Assembly (NCBI GenBank): GCA_017631875.1
Contig: JAGBSL010000063.1
Span: 1 to 14,428, forward strand
Direction of reading: 5' to 3'
Length of the DNA: 14,428 bases
DNA from: Bacteroidales bacterium
GTDB taxonomy: Bacteria > Bacteroidota > Bacteroidia > Bacteroidales > UBA932
The notes under the pieces were generated by a model. The model did no database searches, was not told the origin of the DNA, and saw nothing but the letters and a program-made list of their open reading frames with translations. A program made the position numbers and the translations under genes. This document shows positions 1,475 to 11,937 of the stretch, piece after piece (positions within the stretch are counted from its first letter, which is position 1; every line of letters starts with the position of its first letter).

Positions 1475-2728
1475 ATGAAGTATTACATTATTGCAGGCGA
1501 AGCATCAGGAGACCTTCATGGTTCCAATCTGATGAAAGGCATATATGCGGAGGACCCGCAGGCGGAGATACGTTTCTGGGGCGGCGACCTTATGCACGCG
1601 GTATGGGCTGGTTCCCAAAACAACCCCTCCCACGACTTTGTCGCGGGTCCCTCCCCCTGCGGCCAGGGGGGTAGCACGGTTTTGGAAACCAGCCCACACC
1701 CCTCACAAGAAGGTTTGGTAAAACATTACAAGGAAGGAGCGGTGATGGGATTTGTGGAAGTTCTCGCAAAGGCAGGCAAGCTGCTCAAGAACGTGAAGTT
1801 CTGCAAGGAGGACATTCTCGCATGGAAACCGGATGTAGTGATTCTCATTGACTACCCCGGCTTCAACTTCAAGATTGCGGAATTCGCCCACAAAGCCGGT
1901 TTCAAGGTATTTTACTATATTGCTCCAAAGGTCTGGGCATCACGCGAAAGCCGCATCAAGAAGCTCAAAGCATATGTTGACAAGCTCTTCATCGTATTCC
2001 CGTTCGAGAAACCATACTTCGATGCCAAAGGTGTGGAATACATATACAAGGGCAACCCTCTTGTGGATGCTGTGGACGGCTCCCCTGCCATGCTGGAAAC
2101 CCGCCAGGACTTCCTGGAGCGCACAGGACTTGAAGATAAGCCGATCATAGCCATGCTTGCCGGCTCACGTAAAGGCGAAATCAGCACGATGATGCCGGTA
2201 CTGACAGAGTTTGCAGGAAAGATGCACTCGCTGGCAAAGTATTCGGGCTACCAGTTCCTGATAGCAGGCGCTCCATCAAGGACCATGAAGGATTACGAAC
2301 CATGGCTTACCAGAGAAAACAGGAAATATATAAGGGTATTGTTCGGAGAAACGCAGTCCATCATCCGTCATGCAGAGGCCGGAGTCATCAATTCCGGTAC
2401 GGCATCTCTTGAGACTGCCCTTTTCGGCACCCCTCAGGTTGTAGGATACATAACCAACCCTCTCACATATAGGATTGCAAAGAAAATCGTCAAGATAAAG
2501 TACATCAGCCTTGGCAATCTGATCATAGACAGGCTCGCGTTCAAGGAATTCATCCAGGACGAATGCAACTCGGACGCTTTAGTCACCGAAATCCGCGAAC
2601 TCATTGAGAATCAGGAACGCAAAACAAAGATGTCAGCAGATTATGCTGACATCCGTAATGCTCTCGGAGGCACAGGAGCCTCATCGGCCGTCGCCAAAGC
2701 AATGATTGAAGAATTACGTTTCAGATAA
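1475..2728 (+). CDS. lpxB: Lipid-A-disaccharide synthase LpxB carrying an in-frame palindromic insert
   Basis: Membrane-associated GT19 glycosyltransferase that joins UDP-2,3-diacylglucosamine and lipid X to make the lipid A disaccharide. The start at 1475 gives MKYYIIAGEASGDLHGSNLM, the conserved family N-terminus; the same frame is open back to 1349, but that extension only overlaps surE. Other landmarks are VVILIDYPGFN (Asp126, equivalent of the catalytic Asp region), LAGSRKGEI (229-237) and INSGTASLETALFGTPQVVGY (305-325). At 417 residues it is about 35 longer than usual. The excess is one block, residues 44 to about 78, between GGDLMHAV and LVKHYKEGAVMGFVEVL, parts that are normally nearly adjacent. 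Residues 44-74 are encoded exactly by a 93-bp hairpin element (1604-1696). All catalytic motifs are intact and the frame is unbroken, so I call the gene functional, with a disposable loop added. A strong terminator follows at 2754. Confidence 0.95.
   Translation: MKYYIIAGEASGDLHGSNLMKGIYAEDPQAEIRFWGGDLMHAVWAGSQNNPSHDFVAGPSPCGQGGSTVLETSPHPSQEGLVKHYKEGAVMGFVEVLAKAGKLLKNVKFCKEDILAWKPDVVILIDYPGFNFKIAEFAHKAGFKVFYYIAPKVWASRESRIKKLKAYVDKLFIVFPFEKPYFDAKGVEYIYKGNPLVDAVDGSPAMLETRQDFLERTGLEDKPIIAMLAGSRKGEISTMMPVLTEFAGKMHSLAKYSGYQFLIAGAPSRTMKDYEPWLTRENRKYIRVLFGETQSIIRHAEAGVINSGTASLETALFGTPQVVGYITNPLTYRIAKKIVKIKYISLGNLIIDRLAFKEFIQDECNSDALVTEIRELIENQERKTKMSADYADIRNALGGTGASSAVAKAMIEELRFR
1604..1696 (+). repeat. 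93-bp palindromic element inserted in frame within lpxB
   Basis: The ends form an 18-bp inverted repeat with one mismatch: TGGGCTGGTTCCCAAAAC (1604-1621) and GTTTTGGAAACCAGCCCA (1679-1696). Inside are two further hairpins. The first is CGAC-TTT-GTCG (1633-1643), flanked by CCC/GGG. The second is CCCCCT-GCGGCC-AGGGGG (1653-1670). The whole would fold as a stem with two arms. Its length is exactly 31 codons, it starts on a codon boundary (residue 44), and no stop occurs in the read frame. The encoded stretch is rich in Gly, Ser and Pro and has no counterpart in LpxB proteins I know. Base composition (runs of C and G) differs from the surrounding gene. I infer a mobile or formerly mobile non-autonomous palindromic repeat. 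Confidence 0.8.
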
Positions 2729-10508: not shown

Positions 10509-10586
10509 GTGGCCAGCAACAGACTGGCCACCAATAATTTAAATATACCTCCGTGCTCCCCTTTGACAGCACGGAGGTATATTTAA
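10509..10586. repeat. Two further hairpins between convergent genes
   Basis: GTGGCCAG-CAACAGA-CTGGCCAC (10509-10531) is followed by a perfect 19-bp inverted repeat, TTAAATATACCTCCGTGCT (10539-10557) and AGCACGGAGGTATATTTAA (10568-10586), with a 10-nt loop. The second has AT-rich outer ends and may terminate the mtgA transcript arriving from the right. With the preceding terminator this gives three hairpins in 118 bp. Confidence 0.75.
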
Positions 10587-11867: not shown

Positions 11868-11937
11868 ATATTCCGTTTATTCAGTTTCACCTTCATCTCG
11901 TGATGAATTCTCAGGCAAAATTGAACAAACGGAATAT
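11868..11937. repeat. Nested inverted repeat upstream of the M23 peptidase gene
   Basis: Outer arms ATATTCCGTTT (11868-11878) and AAACGGAATAT (11927-11937) are perfect 11-bp complements enclosing 48 nt that hold an inner hairpin TTCATC-TCGT-GATGAA (11892-11907). It ends three bases from the M23 start codon, so in the messenger the outer stem would place the ribosome-binding region in a structure. Possible terminator of the TonB receptor transcript, leader regulation, or a mobile repeat; I cannot tell which. Confidence 0.55.

Follow-up and report, generated by a model that had tools for sequence, protein, structure and literature searches.

A dispersed hairpin element with locus-specific mirrored arms, read in frame in lpxB and seven further genes of gut Bacteroidales

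In the Bacteroidales DNA analysed here (the window, a stretch of 14,428 nucleotides in all), the open reading frame of lpxB runs through a 93-bp palindrome. What kind of DNA is this block, how does it come to lie within a housekeeping gene, and where does its symmetry originate? An earlier note on the window had taken it for an inserted palindromic element that is tolerated as a loop of the enzyme, analogous but unrelated to the Rickettsia palindromic elements (RPEs), and we have followed this proposal through the alleles of lpxB, the further copies of the element and the anatomy of its arms.

The insert of LpxB and its alleles

The features of the locus are collected in Table 1. The two 18-nt arms (1604-1621 and 1679-1696), near-perfect according to the earlier note, match at 17 of 18 positions, and, as the note had it, position 1604 is a codon boundary and the block is free of stops; the repeat search of the window lengthened these arms to 22 nt, and the outer stem as well as both inner hairpins of the palindrome recur in 48 aligned copies. 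Covariance model R1 matched positions 1602-1698 with 104.4 bits, a score to be read with the window itself being part of the model. The DNA fold of positions 1590-1720 (-28.3 kcal/mol, z -2.37, with 5 of 200 shuffles equally good) lends modest support for structure in this copy alone. The peptide encoded by the insert is NNPSHDFVAGPSPCGQGG. Of the roughly 35 extra residues claimed, we count 32 relative to a 385-aa allele (GGDLMAQVGGELVKHYKE, P0081), and the block lies where it had been placed, but the non-native stretch reaches to about position 1711 instead of ending at 1696.

Table 1. Features of the lpxB locus in the window
Feature	Position	Strand	Basis
lpxB, lipid-A-disaccharide synthase, 417 aa, holding the insert	1475..2728	+	ORF; Pfam PF02684, E 1.2e-78; PDB relatives 5w8n, 5w8s
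Left arm (5' stem), locus-specific sequence	1600..1621	+	91% complementary to 1679-1700; arm columns of the copy alignment
AA between left arm and core	after 1621, before core start at 1624		
Conserved core, 55 nt, two inner hairpins, forward in lpxB, read as (N)PSHDFVAGPSPCGQGGST	1624..1678	+	model R1, alignment consensus
Inner hairpin 1, variable loop, stem covarying in part	1629..1647	+	helix 2 of covariation analysis
Inner hairpin 2, almost invariant, loop GCGGCC	1653..1670	+	helix 3 of covariation analysis
Right arm (3' stem), inverted copy of the left arm	1679..1700	+	repeat search, alignment, covariation
Short non-native tail preceding GLVKHYKE	1701..1711	+	comparison with core-less alleles

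At the protein level, the AlphaFold2 model of the window LpxB (35 sequences) reached a mean pLDDT of 86.5, with 370 of 417 residues at 70 or above; residues 51-77 fell below 50 and the rest was mostly confident, in agreement with the earlier placement of the insert in a loop. PDB relatives align on either side of it (query residues 5-40 and 86-398). On a plain reading of the model, the insert would form a disordered, tolerated loop, and it is likely translated, since the reading frame is kept.

Among the best 120 of 8000 scored relatives examined in a protein search with LpxB, the loop between GGDLM and LV(K/R)HYKE is hypervariable and occurs in several states, namely empty (AQVGGE), forward (NNPSH..CGQGGSTV), reversed (NRATPLAAGGG..VGGVV), and shortened or other. 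The expected absence from close kin was borne out by P0046 and P0081, both without the block, which are identical to the window LpxB at 366 and 362 of 373 positions outside the loop (97-98%). Furthermore, P0006 (361 of 373) and P0007 (359 of 373) carry the element reversed, and at the protein level, to which this comparison with P0001 is confined, their cores are flanked by nearly the same arm residues (WAGSQN ... SP[HY]PSQ). An element that is absent or inverted in near-identical alleles is therefore not a fixed loop of the lineage.

For an LpxB tree, 156 of 171 rows were parsed, 15 distant L rows were dropped, P rows with repeated loops were removed, and 77 rows were kept. The site motif used on the L loci demands an open frame and parsed 35 of 50 Bacteroidota-type L loci plus the window; from the GEASGD motif onwards, 14 of the 15 unparsed loci stay open for more than 330 codons, and the remaining one, L049, was not picked up with that motif. 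On the 77-row tree, the four loop states need 31 changes (shuffled mean 37.3, with none of 200 shuffles as low), and well-supported branches alone require at least 11 changes for the forward and at least 7 for the reverse state. Near-identical loops (VG[VM]W[AS]GFRNNPSHSYG..) sit on separate branches (P0002, P0005, P0017), and thus recombination between strains probably contributes to the pattern, as judged from these sequences, and could inflate the count of state changes. P0045 looks like a deletion within the element. At the DNA level, with 10 lpxB genes and their 45 pairs pooled, gap columns omitted and copies with nested cores left out, fourfold sites are 40%, cores 91% and arms 59% identical.

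Dispersal, sites and reading frames

Outside lpxB of the window, the family is dispersed. When 31 genomes, taken from those behind a set of 53 loci, were searched with the 93-mer (E <= 0.01), 26 of these related Bacteroidales genomes contained matches, both genic and intergenic, in keeping with the earlier note; the genome of L027 (Candidatus Cryptobacteroides merdavium) was among the five without a match at this threshold. Matching genomes held 1 to 9 places each, some of which are partial matches to a sister repeat. In a genus sample, the core was matched in 20 of 121 genomes at E <= 1e-6, with up to seven candidates scored per genome and partial and sister-type matches included. In a sample of the order, the covariance model was matched at E <= 1e-4 in 2 of 295 genomes, under strict filters and with up to 14 candidates scored per genome: G002, which is the centre genome, and G272, whose two readable copies (L207, L209) are both of the sister type. 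The element is thus neither a loop conserved across the order nor confined to a single copy, contrary to the alternative that the earlier note had raised. Given so few matches in the order sample, the family looks narrow, its hosts being a group of gut Bacteroidales related to Cryptobacteroides and mostly represented by ruminant metagenome genomes. Plasmids and phages yielded no match, and IMG/VR no exact match to 24 nt of the core, on which grounds an origin from phages or plasmids was rejected.

A total of 55 distinct anchored copies were read, taken from blast hits spanning query positions 25-70, with two anchorless hits and the copies with long nested cores (L012, L024, L050) left out. Forty-two are in frame within eight genes, namely lpxB (10 copies), an M20 peptidase (argE-like; 6), aroE (6), a hutI-like amidohydrolase (6), truB (5), miaA (4), tilS (3) and aroK (2), and 13 lie elsewhere. 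Pfam backs the identities of lpxB, M20 peptidase, truB, aroE, miaA and amidohydrolase; tilS and aroK as identities, like the exact designations argE and hutI, are presumed from sequence motifs. Within each gene the copies occupy one site common to different species. Relative to the gene, the core is oriented 21 versus 21 overall, and both orientations can occur at one site. The frames used by the genic copies are forward-1 (19), forward-2 (2), reverse-a (15) and reverse-b (6), the labels of L067, L116 and L118 having been set by hand; owing to a core of 57 nt, the two aroK copies start in a different frame and end in forward-1. Across the 55 copies, five of the six possible frames through the unit are stop-free in 36 to 49 cases, and the sixth in 4. 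As for the non-genic copies, 12 of 13 occupy gaps beside gene ends, with ORFs of at least 130 codons as neighbours (convergent in 8 cases, co-directional in 3, and a single one visible in 1), and L104 lies at a contig end. The locus-specificity of the arms, the inverted core and the eight affected genes had been missed in the earlier reading.

Several further repeats were noted. One of them is a sister repeat (reading TAAATCCCTCCCAC..GTGGGCCCCTCCCGTTCACGAGGCCACGGGCGGCCACGG in several copies; loci L132, L135-L143, L207, L209, L214-L216, L078 and L079), which has hairpin 1 in common with the element but departs from it in the second half; its copies showed no long ORF running across them, and several have mirror arms that differ by locus. 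In L012, L024 and L050 (lpxB) and in L129/L185 (truB), extra sequence, partly palindromic and in frame, is nested in the core (for instance VVSGKQTAQWAFAASSHE), as if elements stack at one tolerant site. The truB site of L181 and L182, from two genomes, holds a different repeat-like insert (ASEDPRP..SSPAI), which suggests that it is a general tolerant hot spot, and the aroE site of L149 holds another repeat-like insert (SLARNDRKTTRNDN..), which we take to resemble a dispersed repeat. The window itself contains two strong inverted repeats without a core, at 10539-10586 (19 bp, perfect) and 11868-11937 (25 bp, 84%), which are possibly terminators.

Conserved core, mirrored arms and their possible origin

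In 50 of the 55 copies, the core has a length of 55, 49 or 52 nt; its consensus is CCCCTCCCAC..GTGGG(C/T)CCCTCCCCCTGCGGCCAGGGGGGTAGCACG, with a T/A subfamily (CTCTGCGGCCAGAG). GGTAG follows hairpin 2 within the core as delimited here. Ungapped arms of 22 to 33 bp flank it in 44 of 55 copies (the anchors of L100 and L123 understate arms that are actually longer), and among the 50 copies whose arms measure 8 or more, 90 of 1266 positions are mismatched. The arm sequences differ from locus to locus, yet they are complementary within each copy. The alignment comprises 48 of the 55 copies, with five omitted for arms that pair at less than 12 of 20 positions and two cut by contig ends; 93.1% of its arm cells are paired, a value biased upward by the omission of weakly paired copies, so that these figures describe copies with intact arms. 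All 20 arm pairs have changed on both sides, and the covariation score of 0.600 compares with 0.155 for shuffled controls (not reached in any of 500) and with 0.079-0.117 for slid ones. As the copies stem from many unrelated loci, this is arm-to-arm identity and not the outcome of slow compensatory evolution alone.

The clearest view of where an arm may come from is given by aroE, the only gene with a clear native arm. Here the left arm encodes a WLSDVAEGLK-type stretch with a counterpart in core-less enzymes as well (WLEEVQAEAAEDLK and similar), whereas the right arm is an inverted copy of the left and has no counterpart in them; an arm of this native type is found next to forward and reversed cores alike (L064, L067). 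The arms of lpxB are mostly missing from core-less alleles. Mean core identity is 0.833 within the same genome, 0.833 between different genomes at unrelated loci, and 0.859 within the same gene. With within-genome cores no closer than between-genome ones, the family is unlike the product of recent bursts, and sequence constraint may apply; the cores would be either young, through the rapid gain and loss that the alleles suggest, or constrained.

On balance, the block in lpxB is probably a copy of a non-autonomous selfish hairpin element, whose arms have been made or matched by fold-back template switching. The element proper would then be the core of about 55 bp with its two inner hairpins, through which most reading frames are open. 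It would reach a few permissive sites, namely gaps next to the ends of genes and, in housekeeping enzymes, disordered loops, in which only in-frame copies would survive. The arms would not be a fixed part of it; rather, one side would be host or drifted sequence and the other its reverse complement, with fold-back template switching of the replicating strand both producing this match and maintaining it, and either this switching or recombination between the arms would invert the core in place. The reading presupposes that the core is, or has been, mobile and that the inserted peptide is close to neutral, both of which we infer from the distribution of copies and alleles. No transposition event was seen among the copies, and no mobiliser was found. 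Matches to Y1 transposases are present in all 14 genomes searched from the series G001-G031 (45 in total, 1-7 each, mostly open frames of about 290-350 aa), and a core lies near such a match in 1 of the 20 places examined of these 45, namely L122/L229; a RAYT mobiliser was accordingly rejected, the genes being present and linkage to the core not. At L122/L229 (contig 71 of G022), the element lies about 400 bp from a Y1-type match below the family cut-off, possibly by chance.

A bolder version, which we put forward tentatively and consider less probable, is that an arm-less mobile core gains its inverted repeats anew at each site through reverse copying of host sequence, in effect duplicating its target in inverted form. 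If true, host coding sequence would turn into the ends of the element, and the element, lodged in essential enzymes, would retain the capacity to flip and to repair itself on the time scale of strains.

The strongest competitor, although unlikely, reverses the order of events: a mobile core enters the loops of pre-existing hairpins, and arms differ as their targets differ. The gap between rodA and ahcY (both identities Pfam-supported) speaks for it, as a core-less hairpin of L254 has almost the stem of the core-bearing L251, so that hairpins can exist without the core, and L276 has a plain hairpin in the same gap; in addition, the core-less lpxB of L009 contains an 11-bp perfect stem. Within genes, however, a perfect stem of at least 8 bp (loops of 3-25) occurs in only 2 of 22 core-less lpxB alleles (1.0% in control windows), one of which (L001) looks like a core remnant; stems reach at most 8 bp in 11 core-less aroE segments, some with core remnants, and the mirrored aroE right arm is absent when the core is absent. 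Pre-existing hairpins as the sole origin of the arms are unsupported in lpxB or aroE and possible in the rodA gap. It may be that the arms came before the core where hairpins resemble terminators, and after it within genes.

We give rather less credence to a functional structured RNA, in which a hairpin is selected as mRNA or small RNA and the arms covary since pairing is needed. The very strong covariation of the arms, partial also for hairpin 1, the conserved core sequence, and the position of intergenic copies next to the 3' ends of genes, with ORFs converging on 8 of the 12 in the manner of terminators, would all suit it. An RNA stem maintained by selection tolerates G-U pairs. In gene sense, the arm mismatches of the 42 genic copies, the only ones for which the transcribed strand is known, comprise 31 A-C and 10 G-U with strands set by hand, and 30 and 11 with the gene strand taken from the longest ORF; the 13 non-genic copies, read in element sense, show 10 and 2. 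G-U is therefore not favoured over A-C, which argues for DNA copying by template switching and not for mRNA structure, although the excess of A-C (31 versus 10) is itself without explanation. Equally at odds with a selected RNA are the even orientation of genic copies (21/21), both orientations being found at the same site, the lack of an Rfam match (the window at the gathering cut-off, 10 loci at E <= 0.5) and the near-identical LpxB alleles without the element. Template switching is described as homogenising the arms of inverted repeats and inverting their spacer (PMC8604942) and as creating and maintaining perfect stems (PMC8794818). Both of these signatures are present in the element, from which we infer template switching as the cause.

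An artefact of metagenome assembly or binning, producing fold-back chimeras, is very improbable: copy-bearing loci do stem from metagenome-assembled genomes and some copies lie at contig ends, but identical sites recur across independent assemblies and studies, clusters contain up to 159 member sequences (P0075), and the coding frame is kept in 42 of 55 copies. Finally, an ordinary lineage-specific coding loop with symmetry by chance, suggested by a segment that is in frame and recurs in relatives, is refuted by the same DNA in seven further genes in other frames and strands, its absence from 97-98% identical alleles, and the covariation of the arms.

Comparison with known systems

In-frame palindromes are best known from Rickettsia, and gut Bacteroidales turn out to have a comparable set in eight housekeeping enzymes, with turnover at the level of alleles and with arms that mirror local sequence. 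The family makes two questions testable, namely how new protein segments can originate by insertion without loss of function, and whether template switching of DNA can be a source of paired-site covariation, which is usually taken as proof of RNA structure. It is a naturally occurring case in which the reshaping of proteins by mobile DNA and by slips of DNA copying can be examined.

The analogy to RPEs drawn in the earlier note holds, in that 42 of the 55 copies are read in frame within eight genes and 12 of the 13 others are intergenic, and 'analogous to RPE but unrelated' appears a reasonable description. The comparison is by mode of action, not by sequence, and the hosts differ (Bacteroidales versus Rickettsia). 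We assume that RPE copies share their ends, unlike the arms of the Bacteroidales element, whose locus-specific mirror arms, occurrence in both orientations and use of several frames per site set it apart; locus-made arms and flips of the core go beyond the analogy. The likeness is that both are palindromes lying in frame in conserved protein genes and also between genes, where they are tolerated (PMC2229807, PMC3733652), and that truB is a target common to RPE-1 and the Bacteroidales element, RPE-1 interrupting truB of R. conorii (PMC2229807, PMC3733652).

With REPs of the GTAG/CGTC type the element has in common that these are short palindromes, some of them intragenic and sometimes at the same site across related species, and CGTC repeats are recorded from Bacteroidetes (PMC3733652). 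REPs, however, are 20-40 bp long with a GTAG/CGTC end tag, whereas the core is about 55 bp plus arms of mostly 22-33 bp, its GGTAG lies inside the core as delimited here, and linkage to Y1 was lacking in the places examined; from the CGTC repeats of Bacteroidetes it is set apart by description, not by sequence. MITEs such as ERIC and Correia/NEMIS are likewise non-autonomous palindromes of small size, and some of them form in-frame fusions with ORFs (PMC2229807), but the element lacks a shared terminal inverted repeat, as its arms vary by locus. As to target-site duplication, a mark of MITEs, the copies included no recent insertion paired with its empty site at the DNA level. No equivalent from Bacteroidales or Cryptobacteroides was recognisable in the literature as represented by titles and abstract openings, subscription journals lying mostly outside this scope.

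A further comparison is with the template switching of quasi-palindromes, which predicts homogenised arms and inverted spacers (PMC8604942) and perfect stems (PMC8794818). There, it concerns inverted repeats in general, whether existing or newly made; here, in contrast, a dispersed and conserved core stands at the centre of many such repeats.
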